From IMG/VR virus record IMGVR_UViG_3300020469_000124, positions 1-35,539 of that record: a DNA stretch of 35,539 nucleotides. One strand, written 5' to 3'. The DNA comes from a virus. Under the pieces are notes generated by a model, which saw nothing but the letters and a program-made list of their open reading frames with translations, searched no databases and had not been told where the DNA came from. This document shows positions 20,999 through 29,053 of the stretch, in pieces (the first letter of the stretch is position 1; every line of letters begins with the position of its first letter). The position numbers were made by a program, and so were the translations under genes.

Positions 20999-23524
20999 AT
21001 GGCACTTAGTCCTCAATTATTACAATTCAAATCTAGTGGTGTATACCGACTAGAATTTGATAAGTCCCAGGTATCAAGTATATCTGCAGAGACTATTAGA
21101 TTAATGGCAGGTCACTCAAGAAAGGGACCTTACAACACGCCGGTTTTCGTTGAAGATACAGAAACTTTTGTTTTAATCTTTGGTGGAATCGATAAAAAAT
21201 TAGAGAAGAAAGGAATGTTCTTCCACAGATCATGTTTAGAAGCATTAAAGAGAGGTCCAATTTTAGCTATGAACTTAGCTGATTTTGATTCTTCTGATAT
21301 AGCTTCATATGCAAGAATTGCTACAGATGCTTCAGACGATACAGCTCAAAATGTTACTGGAACTGATGAGTATGAAAACTTTCATAACATTGATAAATTT
21401 ATGTATCCTTCTGATCAATCAGTATTAGAAGCATTAGGTTACGCTGGAGTTGCTGAAGCAACTGCATTAAATTTAGTAAACCTTGGTCAAAGCAATCTTT
21501 CAGTTATTGTTAGACAAGCACAGGATTTAGATAAATCTTTTCATGTTACTGCAAGAGATTGGTATGGTGAAGAAAATATTCCAGATGGTATTGGCGAGTT
21601 TGATTATATTTCAGACTATATGGTTGATATTTTAGTATTTCAAGGAAAATTTGAAGCTTCCGCAATGGATTTAGACCCAGTTTATGGAGATTATTTTTCT
21701 TCAACTGGTTTATTAAAAGATAAATTAGTAGAGTTTGCTAATGAAAGACAAGTTAATTTATTAGCACAATATACTGGTTCAATTATTCCAGCCTTCACAG
21801 ATTTAGAAGGAAATGGTTTATATATTGAACAACAAATTAACGCTGAAACAAGAAGAACAGGTTTATTCTGCGCAGTTAACGAAGAAGCTGTTGAAAATGG
21901 AGCAGTTGATTTAATCGGTGAAGCTTATAATGAAACACTAGATTATACAGCTTTATCATATTCAACAGATCAAAACCCTCAAGCTACTTATGGTGCTGAT
22001 GTGGATGTAGATACAAGTACTCAAGATTCACTTACGGTTACTTCGGGTCAAATCGTAATTGTTGATTCAACACCAACTGATTATTCAACTAGTTTTGATG
22101 GTAAATATATCGAAGCAGTAGGCGGAGGTTATTTATTAGTTGCTGCAACATTCGATAGTGGTACTAATACTACTACATTAACTTTTTCAGGAGATGCAGA
22201 TGTAGTAGATTCAGCATCAAACATTCAAACTTACGTTATTACTACTCCAGCTCAAGGAACTAGAAGTATAGATATGACTGCGTTTGCAGTTGCTGTTTCA
22301 GGTTCAACTGCAGTATTTACAGGAACAATAGAATTTCCACTTTCAGTTGGTGATTATTTACCAGCAGCTACTGCTGATAAATTAGCTAGAGTAACTAGAA
22401 TTGCAAATACAGACACTAATGAATATACAGTTTACTGTCATAGACCTATTGATTCTGGATACGCTGTTACAACAGACGCTTTAAAATCACTTGAAAGTTC
22501 AGTTAGTGAATATAAGATGTTTAACTTTGATAAAATTTCAATTTCTGATCAAAGTATTCAAGATTGTTTAACTGCAATTTCAAGCGGAGGTGTTAAAGCT
22601 GCATTAGTTGATAGAGATGTTATTGATTTAAGATATATTGTAGATACATTCGGATCTTATGAAGGTGGTATATTAAATAAAATTGAACTTACACAGATTG
22701 CAAAAGAGAGACAAAATGTTTCTTGTATATTAAATGCACCAACTGTTGAAGATTTTAAAAAGTCTACGGATCCATCTTTTAAAGATGCATTTACTGGAAG
22801 TTTTGAAACAAGATTTGTTGCTGACGGAGGTGATTTATCACAAAATCCAACTGCTACATATAATTTACCTTCAATAGCTGATGGCGCAAACTACGGATTC
22901 TATTATGGTCCTGGTTTAAATGTTAGAGAAAATGGAAAAGTAACAGTTGTTCCGCCAGCTGCTTATGTATCAAATAACTATATGGATAAATTTTCAGATT
23001 CATTACCATGGTCAATCGTTGCAGGTCCAAGAAGAGGAGTTGTTGCAGGTACTAACGTAATTGGAGCTGAATATCCATTTGACAAAGCAGATAGAGATAA
23101 TTTAGAACCATTTGGTTATAACCCAATTGTATTCGAAAGAGGAGTTGGTCTTGTAATTAAAGGTAATAAAACTGGACAGCAGTCTATTAAATCAGCTTTA
23201 AGTTCTGCTCACGTAAGAGAAGTATTAATTTTCATTGAAAATGGAATTGCAGATATTCTTAAAGATTATGTTTTCGAATTTAATAATGCACAAACAAGAT
23301 TAGAAATTAAAACTCTTGCAGATTCATTTATGGAAGGAGTTCTTTCTGATCAAGGTGTTTACGCTTATAAAAACGTAATGGATCAAACAAACAATACTAA
23401 TGAGGTTATTGATAATAACATGGGTATCTTAGATACATTTGTTGAGCCGGTTAAAGGATTAGAAATTATTGTTCATAGAACAACGATCTTAAATACTGGA
23501 GAAATTGCATCAGGTAACTTCTAA
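20999..23524 (+). CDS. gp18: Contractile tail sheath (T4 gp18)
   Basis: An 841-residue sheath protein. The N-terminus (SSGVYRLEFDKSQVSSISAE, then GHSRKGPYNTPVFVEDTETF, FGGIDKKLEKKGMFFHRSCL) is typical of myovirus sheath. The C-terminal core is also conserved (PWSIVAGPRRGVVAGTNVIG, ANYGFYYGPGLNVRENGKVT and the final attachment strand region). T4 gp18 has 659 residues. The extra length sits mainly between residues about 320 and 485, a Thr/Ser/Asp-rich beta segment that looks like inserted surface domains. Codons are biased as in other highly expressed virion genes. A terminator follows directly. Confidence 0.95.
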   Translation: MALSPQLLQFKSSGVYRLEFDKSQVSSISAETIRLMAGHSRKGPYNTPVFVEDTETFVLIFGGIDKKLEKKGMFFHRSCLEALKRGPILAMNLADFDSSDIASYARIATDASDDTAQNVTGTDEYENFHNIDKFMYPSDQSVLEALGYAGVAEATALNLVNLGQSNLSVIVRQAQDLDKSFHVTARDWYGEENIPDGIGEFDYISDYMVDILVFQGKFEASAMDLDPVYGDYFSSTGLLKDKLVEFANERQVNLLAQYTGSIIPAFTDLEGNGLYIEQQINAETRRTGLFCAVNEEAVENGAVDLIGEAYNETLDYTALSYSTDQNPQATYGADVDVDTSTQDSLTVTSGQIVIVDSTPTDYSTSFDGKYIEAVGGGYLLVAATFDSGTNTTTLTFSGDADVVDSASNIQTYVITTPAQGTRSIDMTAFAVAVSGSTAVFTGTIEFPLSVGDYLPAATADKLARVTRIANTDTNEYTVYCHRPIDSGYAVTTDALKSLESSVSEYKMFNFDKISISDQSIQDCLTAISSGGVKAALVDRDVIDLRYIVDTFGSYEGGILNKIELTQIAKERQNVSCILNAPTVEDFKKSTDPSFKDAFTGSFETRFVADGGDLSQNPTATYNLPSIADGANYGFYYGPGLNVRENGKVTVVPPAAYVSNNYMDKFSDSLPWSIVAGPRRGVVAGTNVIGAEYPFDKADRDNLEPFGYNPIVFERGVGLVIKGNKTGQQSIKSALSSAHVREVLIFIENGIADILKDYVFEFNNAQTRLEIKTLADSFMEGVLSDQGVYAYKNVMDQTNNTNEVIDNNMGILDTFVEPVKGLEIIVHRTTILNTGEIASGNF

Positions 23525-23611: not shown

Positions 23612-24166
23612 ATGGCATTACCACATTATTCAAACGATCAAACTAGTAAGAAGGGTAAAAACTTTGAACCAGTATTAGCTAATATGTTTGAGGTAACTAT
23701 TCTTCCTCCAGCAGGCGTTGGTGGCCAAGAATTATTAATTCAACATGTAAATAATATTAATGGTTTAGAACTTCATAAAGAACTAGGAGTTGTAGATCAG
23801 AAATTTAAATGGTCAACTAGATCTTATACAGGTTTACCAGCTGATTCATTCCTAGATGTTACTGTTAACTTCTCATTAAACTTAAACGAGGCAAATCAAA
23901 TGTACTTATACAAAACAATGAGAGACTGGTACAGATTAGCATACAATCCAGAAACTGGTGAAGTTGGTCTTAAAAAAGATTATGTTGGAACATTAGTAAT
24001 TGTACAATTTAACAGAGCTGGTGATATTTATAGAAAAATCACATGTGAAGATTGTTTTATTACTTCAGCATTAAATCCAACTGCAGAATTAAATTATGAA
24101 ACAGCAGATGCTCAACTATTAGATGTAACTTGGAGAGTTAACACATGGGCTGAGGAATTAGTTTAA
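23612..24166 (+). CDS. gp19: Tail tube protein (T4 gp19)
   Basis: A 184-residue inner tube subunit (T4 gp19: 163). Tube-fold signatures: FEVTILPPAG at the start, KFKWSTRSYTGLPADSFLD, VTVNFSLNLNEANQMYLYKT, then MRDWYRLAYNPETGEVGLKK, the strand TLVIVQFNRAGDIYRKI, and the final LLDVTWRVNTWAEE. Follows the sheath as in T4, separated by a terminator and its own promoter, allowing a different expression level. A second terminator follows its stop. Confidence 0.95.
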   Translation: MALPHYSNDQTSKKGKNFEPVLANMFEVTILPPAGVGGQELLIQHVNNINGLELHKELGVVDQKFKWSTRSYTGLPADSFLDVTVNFSLNLNEANQMYLYKTMRDWYRLAYNPETGEVGLKKDYVGTLVIVQFNRAGDIYRKITCEDCFITSALNPTAELNYETADAQLLDVTWRVNTWAEELV

Positions 24167-24481: not shown

Positions 24482-25483
24482 ATGAGTGAAGAAAACAAAG
24501 ATTTAAACGAGTTCTTAAATAAGAAAGAACAAGAAGGAGGAGCATTTAAGGATGATTCTCAAGAATCTACAAAAGATAACGTAGAAAATGTCGATCCTAT
24601 TGAAGAGACTATAAACAAAGAAGGATTAGGAAAAGTCAATATGGCTAAATTCAATCCTGAAGCTGCGGATAAGGCAGATTTTCATTTAGGTTACCACGAC
24701 ATGGACATGAATACTCTTTTTTCAAAAGGACGCTTTTATCCAGTAGATACTAAAATAACTATTAGATCAGCAAAGGTTGCTGAAATTAGACATTTTTCAA
24801 CAATGGATGAAAATAGTATTTTTGACATCGAAGATAAATTAAATGGAATAGTTAAATCATGTGCTAGAATTGAAGCACCTGGTAAAAAGCTATCTTATAA
24901 AGATCTTTTAGAAGAAGATAGAATTGCGGTTATTTTAGCAATTAGAGACCTTACATTTCCAGAAGCTGAAAACAAATTAATGTTAAAGGCTGAAAATAGT
25001 TATGGAGTAACTGAAGATGTTGAATTAGCTACAAGAAATCTTACTGGAACTGAAGTACCTGAAGAAATTGAAAAATATTACGATGCAGTTGCAAGATGTT
25101 TTAGAATTCAAACTCGTTCTTCTGGAGAAATATTAATGAGACCACCATCTGTTGGCGTTATGGAAGTTGTTACTAAATATATTAAAGAACAACAAGAACA
25201 AAAGAAAAGATGGGATCAATCATTTATACAAATCTTACCATATATTCAATTAGACTGGAGAGGATTTAACACTAAAGAAGTATTTAATCAAGAAGTTGCA
25301 TTTCAAGGATGGAACGAGAAAAAATACATGGTTTCTTACAGATTAGCTGAAAAAATGAAAATAGGAGCACAACCTGAAATGGAAGTGGATGTCGACGGAG
25401 AGACAGTAACGCTCCCTCTCGACTTCCCAGGTGGAATCAAAAGTCTTTTCATTATTTCGGATCTCGCTGGAGAACTTCTTTAA
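24482..25483 (+). CDS. Tail assembly chaperone / baseplate hub gp26-like, first frame
   Basis: A 333-residue protein directly upstream of the tape measure. The N-terminal 55 residues are acidic and disordered. The core resembles the T4 gp26-type assembly protein: TLFSKGRFYPVDTKITIRSA, AEIRHFSTMDENSIFDIEDK, DLLEEDRIAVILAIRDLTF. A helical part with QILPYIQLDWRGFNTKEVFN follows. It ends GELL-stop at CTT CTT TAA. The companion ORF downstream lies in the +1 frame, open from 25410, so the pair resembles the tail chaperone frameshift genes of many long-tailed phages, where a short and a long form coat the tape measure. Family call moderate; chaperone role inferred mainly from position. Confidence 0.7.
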   Translation: MSEENKDLNEFLNKKEQEGGAFKDDSQESTKDNVENVDPIEETINKEGLGKVNMAKFNPEAADKADFHLGYHDMDMNTLFSKGRFYPVDTKITIRSAKVAEIRHFSTMDENSIFDIEDKLNGIVKSCARIEAPGKKLSYKDLLEEDRIAVILAIRDLTFPEAENKLMLKAENSYGVTEDVELATRNLTGTEVPEEIEKYYDAVARCFRIQTRSSGEILMRPPSVGVMEVVTKYIKEQQEQKKRWDQSFIQILPYIQLDWRGFNTKEVFNQEVAFQGWNEKKYMVSYRLAEKMKIGAQPEMEVDVDGETVTLPLDFPGGIKSLFIISDLAGELL

Positions 25484-25733
25484 GACTAAATTTTATCTGG
25501 GCATACATTTACGCCTCCAGCCCTCCGAGATCGACAATCTCGACTATTATGAGTATTATTACTATGTTCAAAATTTAAAAGAACATTTAGATAAGAAAAA
25601 TAAAGCTGAGAAAGACCAACAAGAAGGGGCAGAAGAAAAGATGGGTAAATATAAGAAAGGAATGAATCCTAGCTCAATGGCTAAAAACTTTAAAGCACCT
25701 AAGATGCCTAACATATCTATGCCTAAAATATAG
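25431..25733 (+). CDS. Tail chaperone second part (+1 frame, probably reached by frameshift)
   Basis: The frame is open from 25410 to 25733. The only internal initiation candidate is GTG at 25431, inside the upstream gene and without a leader. The conserved-looking part is KTKFYLGIHLRLQPSEIDNL, then DYYEYYYYVQNLKEHLDKK, a short helical unit seen in second-frame tail chaperone segments, followed by a Lys/Met/Pro-rich tail (SMAKNFKAPKMPNISMPKI). A +1 slip at CTT TAA (25478-25483) would join residue 333 of the first ORF to KTKFYLG, giving a 416-residue fusion. A late promoter for the tape measure overlaps the stop codon. Confidence 0.65.
   Translation: MESKVFSLFRISLENFFKTKFYLGIHLRLQPSEIDNLDYYEYYYYVQNLKEHLDKKNKAEKDQQEGAEEKMGKYKKGMNPSSMAKNFKAPKMPNISMPKI
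25460..25532 (+). repeat. 13-bp interrupted inverted repeat around the frame switch
   Basis: GATCTCGCTGGAG (25460-25472) pairs completely with CTCCAG (25515-25520) plus CGAGATC (25526-25532), leaving a 5-base bulge CCCTC. The 42-base loop contains the CTT CTT TAA. A smaller nested hairpin CGAGAT/ATCTCG lies at 25526-25542. Confidence 0.75.
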
Positions 25734-25759: not shown

Positions 25760-28700
25760 TTGGCAGCTTTTAAATCTCCATTTGAAAAATTAAGTTATGA
25801 GGCCCAGGATGCTATGGCTAAGTCCGTAAATCCTGGCGGTGCTTTATATAGTTTACTTGAAAGACTAGTCGTTACTTCTGAAATATCAACAGGAGGATTT
25901 GTTTCAGATGGTAAAGTAAGTAAAGAAGCTCTTGCCGCTATTGAAGGCCTTGCTCTTGCAAGTAAAAGAATGGCAGGTGCAATCGCATTAATAGCTGCTG
26001 CTAAACCAAATGACGTTGAAAAATTCTTTGGAGTTTTTACACAGTTAAGGAAAACATTACTAGAAGATCTTAGTGAAGAGGTAACACAAGAAATGTTAAC
26101 CCGGTCTTTAGTTTTAGGAAGGCTTGCAGACTCTATTTTACATTTTGGCCATAGCATGGCAGTGTTTGCTGCAATGTCAGCTCCAATCCTTATAGGTGCT
26201 TTAGCTTTCTTCTTTTCAATGAAGCTAATTAAGATGGCAATGGGAGGCGACTTCTTATCAAATGTATTTGGAGTCTTTATTGAAGACCAAATTGGAGTTA
26301 TTGCAGAGAATATTATGCACTTAGGATTGACGTTAGTCGCATTCGCCGCATTATCCCCTGTAATCCTTATAGGTGCATTAGCATTTTGGTTAACTATGAC
26401 AATACTTAAACAAGGTCTTAATGTTTTAGGAGCAAGTAGCGGAGCCCCTGCACTAAATTGGTTTGATAGGGTAATAATGGGTAAAAAATCAAATTTAGTG
26501 TTAGCAATCAATAATGTTAAAAGACTTGGAAAAAGAGTATTAGGTTTTGGTATAAGAATGGCAATAGCTACTCCATTTTTAATAATAGGCGTGATAGGTG
26601 CAATTGCATTTTGGTTTCAACTTAACTTTTTCATCATACCAGCCTTTAAACAATTAGGAGATAAAAGAAGACGTAAAACATTTAAAAGTGCATTAATACA
26701 CAGTTTATTAATAGGTGCAACTTTATTAATACTACTTCCAAGTATGGCAATACTTGCATTAATTGGACTTGTATCTCCTTTAGTAATGCTTGGGTCATTA
26801 GCTGTTGGTCTTGCAGTTGTCGGATTGTCGTATGCTTTTAAAATGGCAGGAAAAGGTGCAAAACAAATAGTAATGGGAGCGTTAGCCTTTATTGTGGTAG
26901 GTATTGCGTTAATAGCACTTGGATATGGGGTTAAAATGTTTGCTGATGCAATAACTAGTATTGAAAGTCCATGGGAATTTTTAGCACAAATCGGAGTTAC
27001 TGTAGTAGGACTTGGTTTAGCAATGGCAGGCGCCGGACTTATTGCGCCAATGATTGCAATAGGTGCTGGAGCAATGTTATTAGCAGGAGCTGCGCTAATT
27101 GTAATAGCAGAAGGTGTAAACTCATTTTCAAAAGTTTTTGCAGGAGGAGCATGGAAAAAAATGATAGCACCTTCTGGTCAAGTAACTGAATCCTTCCTTG
27201 GTTTTGGTGGAGGAAGATCAATTAGTAATTTAGAAATGTTAATGACATCAATTGGTTATTCATTTATGTGGGACCCAATTAGAGCAGGCGCAATAGGAAT
27301 AGGTGCTGCTGCAATGTTGGTTGCTGGTGCAGCACTTGTTGTAATAGGAAAAGGAGTTGAAAAATTCCAAGGATTGTCTATTAATTATGATGTTTTTCCT
27401 GGACAATTAACTAATTTAGTTGAAACTTTAGCTACAGTGTTTGCTGGTATAGGTGAAAAACATGGCGGAGCAGGTTTATTTGGACTTGGTGGAGGAAATG
27501 TTTATAAAGGAATTCAAAGTGTAATGGGAATGGGTAATGCTCTTAGTAGTATTGCATTTGGAATGGCTATGATGTCTAGGTTAGAATTTCCAACATACAA
27601 TCCCGATGGAAGTGTTAAAGAGATTATAACATTGGATAAAGAGGCAATGGGTAAAATTACATTAAACGTTGCAGATATGGTAGAAACTTTAAGTGGAGCC
27701 TTTGGAAATATAGGTAAAAAATATGACAAAGGTGAACAATCACTATGGGAATCTATTAAAAGTTTAGGTAGCAAAGACCCAGTAGCCGCAGGTATTTCAA
27801 TGGTACAAGGATTAGGAGGAGCTATTGGAGGAATAGCAAGAGGTATGAAAGATATGGCAGGTTTAAAGTTTAACGTTTATGGAGACCCTAATAAACCAAC
27901 AAAAGTAACAGAAATAATAGACTTAACTAAAGGCAATGCATTACAAAAAGTCGGAGAAAATGTAATGAAATTAGTTAAAGTCTTAATTGATGGATTTGCG
28001 AATGTAGGTAAATCATATAAAGATTGGATGAGTCAAGGAGATGCTGCTAGAGGATTAAGCATTGCACAAGAAATGGGTCCAGTTCTTGGAACTATAGTCG
28101 ATGGTATGAAAACCTTTAATGAGAATGCAAAAGAAGCTCCTAAAGAAATTAATAACTTTTTAAGAGAATTTGCAGTTTCTTTACAAGATTTAGCAAAAGT
28201 AGATGGAAGAGCTGTAAGAACTGTGGCTACTGGAATAGAATGGCTATTTGATGCATTTCAAGATGAGGAAGAAGGTGTCGAAATTATGATGAAATTTGGA
28301 AGGGAAAGCTTAGCAATATCTAATTTAGGAAAATTCTTTAAATCTTTAGGATCACTTCCTCCAAATATTGATAAATCCGCAAGAGCAATAAAACTTATTG
28401 CCGATTCTACTAAAATAATGGATAAGTATGATGATTTAGGCGATATTGAAGATTTAATAGAAGAAGCATCTGATTTTAAAGCAAACGGCATAGGAGACGC
28501 TATGGCAAAAGTAGCTAGAGCTGTTGAAAAAATGGGAAAGGTAAATACTGCCCATTTCCCAATGATGTATTCATTCCTTGAAAAAATACAAGAATTAGAT
28601 TTAAGCAATGTTAGATCAGATATAGAAAGTATAGCTGAATCTTATGTAAAAATAGGAGATGCAAGTCAAAATTTTAATATTGAAGCTATTGAAGCAACTA

Positions 28701-29053
28701 CGGATATGTTTAAGGCGCTCGCATATCTTTCTGAACAAGGAGGAGAAGATGCAATTGAAGCACTAGGTGATGATTTAATTGAGGCAGTTGAAAAATTAGC
28801 ATTAATGATAGCAGACTTTGGAGGTACTGTTGAAGATGCAAGAGCAAGTCAACAAGGTTTTATAACAAGGGCTTCAAATGCTGTTGGAAATGCAATAGAT
28901 TCTGTAATAGGTTCAGGTTCTTCTGCACCTGCTGCTCCAGCCGCTGCAGGTGGAGTATCTAATAGTGAAGATATTGTTGCAGAGATTAAAAGACTACAGA
29001 GTATTTTAGTTTCAGGAGATGCAGTTGTACAGGTAGACTCAAGCATAATTTAA
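25760..29053 (+). CDS. Tape measure protein
   Basis: A 1097-residue protein, the largest in the window, placed after the tube and the chaperone pair as tape measures are. The start is TTG 25760 (AAFKSPFEKLSYEAQDAMAK); the nearby ATG at 25755 is in another frame. Residues about 130-520 hold many hydrophobic, Gly/Ala-rich segments (for example LIGALAFFFSMKLI, LAFIVVGIALIALGYGV, MLLAGAALIVIAEGVN), which may insert into the host membrane during DNA delivery. The second half is amphipathic helix. The C-terminus has an Ala/Ser/Pro linker (SSAPAAPAAAGGVS) and a short helix. Little obvious similarity to T4 gp29 (590 residues). At about 0.15 nm per residue the tail would be near 160 nm, which is an estimate. 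Confidence 0.85.
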   Translation: MAAFKSPFEKLSYEAQDAMAKSVNPGGALYSLLERLVVTSEISTGGFVSDGKVSKEALAAIEGLALASKRMAGAIALIAAAKPNDVEKFFGVFTQLRKTLLEDLSEEVTQEMLTRSLVLGRLADSILHFGHSMAVFAAMSAPILIGALAFFFSMKLIKMAMGGDFLSNVFGVFIEDQIGVIAENIMHLGLTLVAFAALSPVILIGALAFWLTMTILKQGLNVLGASSGAPALNWFDRVIMGKKSNLVLAINNVKRLGKRVLGFGIRMAIATPFLIIGVIGAIAFWFQLNFFIIPAFKQLGDKRRRKTFKSALIHSLLIGATLLILLPSMAILALIGLVSPLVMLGSLAVGLAVVGLSYAFKMAGKGAKQIVMGALAFIVVGIALIALGYGVKMFADAITSIESPWEFLAQIGVTVVGLGLAMAGAGLIAPMIAIGAGAMLLAGAALIVIAEGVNSFSKVFAGGAWKKMIAPSGQVTESFLGFGGGRSISNLEMLMTSIGYSFMWDPIRAGAIGIGAAAMLVAGAALVVIGKGVEKFQGLSINYDVFPGQLTNLVETLATVFAGIGEKHGGAGLFGLGGGNVYKGIQSVMGMGNALSSIAFGMAMMSRLEFPTYNPDGSVKEIITLDKEAMGKITLNVADMVETLSGAFGNIGKKYDKGEQSLWESIKSLGSKDPVAAGISMVQGLGGAIGGIARGMKDMAGLKFNVYGDPNKPTKVTEIIDLTKGNALQKVGENVMKLVKVLIDGFANVGKSYKDWMSQGDAARGLSIAQEMGPVLGTIVDGMKTFNENAKEAPKEINNFLREFAVSLQDLAKVDGRAVRTVATGIEWLFDAFQDEEEGVEIMMKFGRESLAISNLGKFFKSLGSLPPNIDKSARAIKLIADSTKIMDKYDDLGDIEDLIEEASDFKANGIGDAMAKVARAVEKMGKVNTAHFPMMYSFLEKIQELDLSNVRSDIESIAESYVKIGDASQNFNIEAIEATTDMFKALAYLSEQGGEDAIEALGDDLIEAVEKLALMIADFGGTVEDARASQQGFITRASNAVGNAIDSVIGSGSSAPAAPAAAGGVSNSEDIVAEIKRLQSILVSGDAVVQVDSSII

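Follow-up and report, generated by a model that had tools for sequence, protein, structure and literature searches.

The window, by which we mean the whole stretch of DNA analysed here, is a 35.5-kb virus record (IMGVR_UViG_3300020469_000124, positions 1 to 35,539) that probably represents a fragment of a longer virus genome. Genes for a tail sheath and a tail tube are followed by ORF1, by ORF2 in the +1 frame and by a presumed tape measure gene (Table 1), and this order of tube, short chaperone, extension and tape measure is that of a G/GT tail assembly chaperone locus. The presumed tape measure ORF has no family match, its best PHROG reaching only E=0.06, and no tRNA genes were found in the window. 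The named phages related to it at this locus infect Prevotella, Tenacibaculum, Chryseobacterium, Flavobacterium and Sphingomonas, so the host of the virus is likely a member of the Bacteroidota.

The sequence features on which the original prediction was built are all present. ORF1 ends GAA CTT CTT TAA G with a GGAG just upstream, the +1 frame is open throughout the ORF2 interval, and after the ORF1 stop this frame reads AAG ACT AAA, the beginning of KTKFYLG. ORF2 does lack a good start of its own: the sole ATG, GTG or TTG upstream in its frame is a GTG at 25431, and the next start codon lies 160 nt beyond the stop. The broader proposal, that recoding joins ORF1 to ORF2 as a tail-chaperone pair ahead of the tape measure gene, is supported by comparison with relatives.

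Table 1. Features of the chaperone locus and its neighbors, in window coordinates
Feature	Position	Strand	Basis or comment
Tail sheath protein	20999..23524	+	PHROG 34521 tail sheath E=1e-123; Pfam sheath C-terminal domain
Tail tube protein	23612..24166	+	PHROG 45 tail tube E=2e-8
ORF1, short tail-chaperone product, frame 0, 333 aa	24482..25483	+	PHROG 36717 E=5e-27
ORF2, +1 frame, C-terminal gp51-like extension, without a good start of its own	25410..25733	+	PHROG 634 match begins inside overlap
Proposed shift site CTC CCT CTC	25412..25420	+	Inferred; N[CT]C CCT CT[CT] in 25/25 subclade members listed
Region read in both frames under the proposed model	25419..25483	+	Strongest +1-frame constraint from about 25453
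5-nt spacer, shift site to hairpin	25421..25425	+	Sequence
Hairpin helix P1, 5′ arm CCCAGGTGG	25426..25434	+	9 pairs kept in 20/20 sequences
GTG, sole upstream +1-frame start codon, inside P1 stem	25431..25433	+	Missing in many relatives
Hairpin helix P2, 5′ arm GTCTT	25443..25447	+	Pairs with 25482-25486; U-A to C-G double change in L014/L018
GGAG, proposed SD-like stimulator	25469..25472	+	Unconserved in relatives
CTT TAA, end of short product, not shift site	25478..25483	+	Not retained throughout clade 2 or in distant relatives
Hairpin helix P2, 3′ arm AAGAC	25482..25486	+	Pairs with 25443-25447
Hairpin helix P1, 3′ arm TTATCTGGG, contains Leu CTG 25497-25499	25493..25501	+	CTG fixed in subclade
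Long ORF, 1097 aa, presumed tape measure protein	25760..29053	+	Position, length, hydrophobic composition

By sequence comparison, the ORF1 and ORF2 proteins are relatives of the T4 gp26/gp51 superfamily. Relatives of ORF1 match PF12322 and PHROG 150 (T4 gp26), with the proteins at loci L062 and L067 exceeding the cut-off for PF12322 T4_baseplate, and for the extension the match is PHROG 634. ORF1 of the window has no PF12322 match itself and is assigned to the gp26 family via these relatives and its fold: in BFVD, the model predicted for ORF1 matched baseplate hub assembly proteins of T4-like phages. A PDB fold search with the model returned nothing significant, and a 17-sequence ORF1 alignment was too divergent to serve as a search query. 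In T4 the short and long forms of the family are two separate genes, gp26 and gp51, with gp26 covering PHROG 150 to position 235 and gp51 covering it to position 280; at L087 (2303-3729) these two members lie on opposite strands. Their short-long relation was already published, according to the citation of Vladimirov et al. 2022 in PMC10885494. In all 59 distinct marine T4-like loci, an in-frame T TTT TTC lies just 5′ of the g26 stop and gp51 occupies the −1 frame, an arrangement recognizable as the classical −1 solution. Gene 51 of such phages (L080:2465-2686 and L332-L411) is annotated from a downstream ATG, and the conserved frame begins upstream, overlapping g26. The 735 kb phage LR756501 (L072:3786-4000) has another ORF1 end, and its +1-frame insert is longer and contains a second segment similar to VFSVFTVSWENL. 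A bS21-like ribosomal protein is encoded in four of the five large relatives searched (L412, L413, G001 and G003), and no phage release factor gene was found in any of the five.

A first scan of IMG/VR with ORF1 yielded 66 loci. All intact loci among them keep the +1 arrangement of ORF1 and ORF2 and end CTT TAA, and CTT is the last ORF1 codon in 69 of 69 members of the window clade; the arrangement is thus, as judged from these relatives, more than chance. Changes per codon were counted on a tree of 104 non-redundant sequences. Frame-0 third positions change 26.4 times per codon upstream (19.4 in the lowest 10-codon window) versus 3.4 times in the last 10 codons of ORF1, where first positions still change 9.4 times. 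Frame-0 residues vary (S/Q/P, L/I/F, A/S/T) at overlap sites where the +1 frame keeps F, I and S. Frozen third positions combined with variable first positions, the opposite of the pattern upstream, are the signature of +1-frame translation, and this substitution pattern indicates that the +1 frame is translated in the overlap before the ORF1 stop is reached.

The overlap also encodes recognizable protein in the +1 frame. Its peptide LFxISLENFFKxK is homologous to gp51 of marine T4-like phages, and hhalign against cyanophage gp51 gives 96.5% (E=7.5e-10) with this segment and 88.8% (E=2.5e-6) without it. When its translation is begun at 25419, ORF2 of the window matches PHROG 634 (E=6e-6) from residue 10 on; the match is lost when the query is only the part after the ORF1 stop. 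At L252, where the two ORFs do not overlap, the separate ORF2 encodes the gp51-like segment as SMFKINLENFFKAK, single-coded. This ORF2 (L252 from 2905 onward) has its own ATG a few nt past the ORF1 stop, and the long form may there be made differently or lost. From the selection on the +1 frame, the homology to gp51 and the single-coded segment of L252, it follows that the frame change has to take place well upstream of CTT TAA. The extension appears to be reached by a change of frame that is conserved across the 104 relatives, as seen in the selection on the overlap. We regard it as very probable that some frame change yields a fused long form, presumably through frameshifting and not by some other route.

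The original prediction had placed the shift at CTT TAA itself, as a prfB-like +1 slip stimulated by GGAG, and this we consider very improbable (the junction peptide would then be SLFIISDLAGELLK). In its favor is the CTT TAA shared by the whole window clade and found also at the ORF1 end of LR756500. Against it, protein selection on the +1 frame extends 5′ of the stop to about 25453 or further. The expected conservation of CTT plus stop holds within the window clade but fails in clade 2, where 10 of 35 members end CTT TTA TAA and the +1 frame reads N-F-Y-K, and ORF1 ends differently again in PTm1, PAU, MA9V-1, LR756502 and Lak. CTT TAA is conserved in the window clade because the +1 frame needs F-K there, and CTT is swapped for TTA where that frame tolerates F-Y. 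The codon holding GGAG has TCA, TCT or ACT in relatives. Both CTT TAA and GGAG are thus, on this comparative evidence, by-products of dual coding, and the relatives display neither a conserved CUU-stop shift site nor an upstream internal SD-like stimulator. Bacteroidia usually keep prfB frameshifting despite an occluded anti-SD (PMC8710568), so an SD-based stimulator is possible in principle; none is conserved at this locus.

A different pattern is seen in three sister groups. Freezing begins there exactly at codon −19 (counted back from the ORF1 stop), which is TTT in 85 of 85 sequences with zero third-position changes and is always followed by C, though the next residue may be P, R or Q and the codon pair may be TTT CGT. 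Codons upstream of −19 vary normally, and a +1-frame stop often stands at −62. These features fit a +1 slippage at UUU_C, a type of frameshift reported for influenza PA-X (UCC UUU CGU). In clade 2 the codon after TTT is the rare CCC in 31 of 35 members (CCC makes up 8 of 245 Pro codons when upstream ORF1 codons are counted), and TTT CCC occurs also in the distant PAU, pT24, LR756502, LR745206 and LR756501; TTT CCC is possibly a +1 tandem slip site. At codons −19/−18 of L265-L329 the pair is nearly fixed, and it recurs in several huge phages; PTm1, MA9V-1 and the L060 group are distant exceptions. Two other candidates were discarded: CTT TTC as a family-wide shift site, codons −12/−11 varying freely in clade 2, and a tRNA-Phe slip or hop after Phe codon −11, for which the needed bases are missing in pT24 and other relatives.

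The window does not have the UUU_C of its 85 TTT-type sister sequences: its subclade has TTC CCA GGT at codons −19 to −17. Freezing begins in this subclade at codon −23, with 13 third-position changes in 23 codons against 102 expected (84 in the lowest upstream window of 23 codons), and codons −23 and −22 have none at all. Codons −23 to −21 read N[CT]C CCT CT[CT] in every one of the 25 members listed, in each of which the +1 frame is open from −71 or earlier. Downstream lies a conserved hairpin (25426-25501) whose 14 pairs are all formed in 20 of 20 sequences, that is, 280 of 280 pairs. Seven of the nine P1 pairs never vary, and the covariation consists of one U-A to C-G double change in P2, probably a single event in the two related loci that carry it. 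RNAalifold gives an energy of −23.2 for the window subclade versus −6.2 for shuffled columns (z=−6.8), where the null is a simple, crude column shuffle and the subclade is modest in size. The z is −2.7 in one sister group; no structure was found in the two largest sister groups, and none conserved across the whole clade. The Leu codon in the 3′ arm of P1 is CTG in 18 of 18 subclade sequences, though CTG is 0.7% of Leu codons there, and none of 85 other sequences listed has it at this position. Between 25421 and 25501 of the window even the synonymous positions of the +1 frame are unusually constant within the subclade, hinting at a further RNA constraint inside the hairpin loop. Another stem, around the ORF1 stop (GATCTCG-CTGGAG with CTCCAG-CGAGATC), was rejected; it shows no covariation and is broken in many relatives.

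Since a stimulatory structure acts on sites 5′ of itself, one that begins at 25426 points to CTC CCT CTC, at the usual distance, as the candidate. The shift in the window probably lies, as the conserved motif and hairpin suggest, about 60 bases upstream of the CTT-stop. The subclade motif would allow both tRNAs to re-pair two bases back by full or wobble pairing, and the hairpin beginning 5 nt 3′ of it is a predicted stimulator.

The hairpin also bears on the suggestion, raised in the original prediction as the alternative, that ORF2 is initiated internally at GTG 25431, independently or coupled, with the stem opened by ribosomes on ORF1. This GTG is kept in the window subclade, L252 offers the precedent of a stand-alone ORF2 with ATG, and T4 gene 26 carries an annotated internal in-frame start. 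We nevertheless find it improbable: 11 of 74 distinct overlapping relatives have no ATG, GTG or TTG upstream of the conserved segment, the GTG sits in the stem, fused long forms are known (T4 gp51), and the cyanophage junction carries a −1 heptamer.

We propose that ORF1 and ORF2 form the tail-assembly-chaperone locus of a T4-related, gp26/gp51-type myovirus in which the majority of ribosomes would read ORF1 to its TAA, giving the 333-aa short chaperone. A presumed minority would shift at CTC CCT CTC, most likely by a −2 tandem slip in which peptidyl-tRNA-Pro moves in the P site from CCU to UCC (25413-25415) and tRNA-Leu moves from CUC to CUC (25416-25418), stimulated by the hairpin. Reading would resume at TCG (25419) and run to 25733. 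The resulting long form of 417 aa (..VTLPL-STSQVESKVFSLFRISLENFFKTKF..) would have residues 1-313 in common with the short form; the junction tryptic peptide expected under −2 is IGAQPEMEVDVDGETVTLPLSTSQVESK. Re-pairing at −2 (CCU to YCC, CUY to CUC) would explain why codon −23 ends in C, why a pyrimidine precedes that C, and why CCT and CTY, rather than the common TTA, follow. The re-pairing of CCU with UCC in the window needs a first-position G-U pair, and a perfect match exists only in members with GCC-CCT. The sister groups seem to use UUU_C in the +1 direction, and the model thus has to suppose that the mechanism changed within the family. We regard a hairpin-stimulated −2 tandem slip at these codons as moderately probable; our confidence in the site is kept at that level because the shift codon was inferred after several candidates had been examined.

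The same conserved site and the same open frame would also serve a +1 shift, in which peptidyl-tRNA-Pro moves from CCU to CUC, one base is skipped with the aid of the hairpin, and the product lacks the Leu (..VTLP-STSQ..; expected junction peptide IGAQPEMEVDVDGETVTLPSTSQVESK). Pro codons are prone to +1 shifts, an example being SPP1 CCC UAA (PMC6316719), and the sister groups are probably +1 users. The move from CCU to CUC requires a middle G-U pair and is a poorer fit than −2, a downstream stem is more typical of backward shifts, and the constant C at the end of codon −23 with a pyrimidine before it, and CTY at −21, are left unexplained. A +1 slip at CCU is the chief rival of the −2 slip and has, in our estimation, a small but real chance of being right.

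For a shift further 3′ within the conserved block, at AAA AGT (25439) or CTT TTC (25445, a CUU_U), we see only a small chance. CTT TTC, and AAA with an A or G after it, occur in all subclade members; codons −12/−11 are frozen in the window clade; and CUU_U is the most efficient prfB-type site (PMC5009743). Such a shift would account neither for the 5′ arm of the hairpin (25426-25434), nor for the freezing of codons −23, −22 and −19 to −15, nor for the Ser that the +1 frame has at codon −15. A ribosome at these codons already has the stem open, and both CTT and AAA vary in clade 2.

With the −2 slip taken for the window, one homologous gene pair would display at least three kinds of slip. Marine T4-like phages would use −1 at U UUU UUC, most relatives of the window +1 at UUU_C, and the window lineage −2 at (N)YC CCU CUY with an acquired hairpin, the gene duplication of T4 being a fourth solution. 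We put the chance that this whole picture is right at about even. Tail chaperones are a classic example of recoding that controls the ratio of two products, and −2 shifts are very rare. If the picture is true, one gene pair keeps its two-product output while the slip mechanism is exchanged, and these phages would offer natural experiments on the origin of −1, +1 and −2 sites and their stimulators. The locus also warns that the conservation of a codon plus stop within an overlap may simply reflect dual coding, and the gp51-like part is unannotated or started too late in several database genomes.

Several known systems resemble the locus in part. Like gpG/gpGT of lambda, the window pair lies between the tube and presumed tape measure genes, specifies a short and a long product that share their N-terminus, and has the extension in another frame; it would presumably play a similar role. 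Lambda and most others shift by −1, whereas the window requires +1/−2, has no −1 slippery heptamer and encodes proteins of the T4 gp26/gp51 superfamily. Within that superfamily, T4 gp26/gp51 and cyanophage g26/g51 share the domain families of the window's relatives, but T4 uses two genes, and the T TTT TTC heptamer was found only in the marine T4-like loci. The CUU UGA of prfB (RF2) resembles the CTT plus stop of ORF1, but the window has TAA, no conserved SD-like element and an unconserved position, and the evidence argues against a shift there. Influenza PA-X shares its UUU_C, including TTT CGT, with codon −19 of the sister groups but not with the window, which has TTC there and hence does not use that site. 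We know of no −2 example at (N)YC CCU CUY. Known tail chaperones shift by −1, by −2 (Mu) or by +1 (HSTV-2), with T4 long listed as an exception without a frameshift (PMC5009743), and in SPP1 the chaperone gene shifts by −1 and the tube protein gene by +1 at CCC UAA (PMC6316719). The closest parallels to the proposed shift are phage Mu and the arteriviruses, in which a two-base backward slip likewise gives access to the +1 frame (PMC5009743); they differ in host, genes and stimulator, and the window adds a downstream hairpin.
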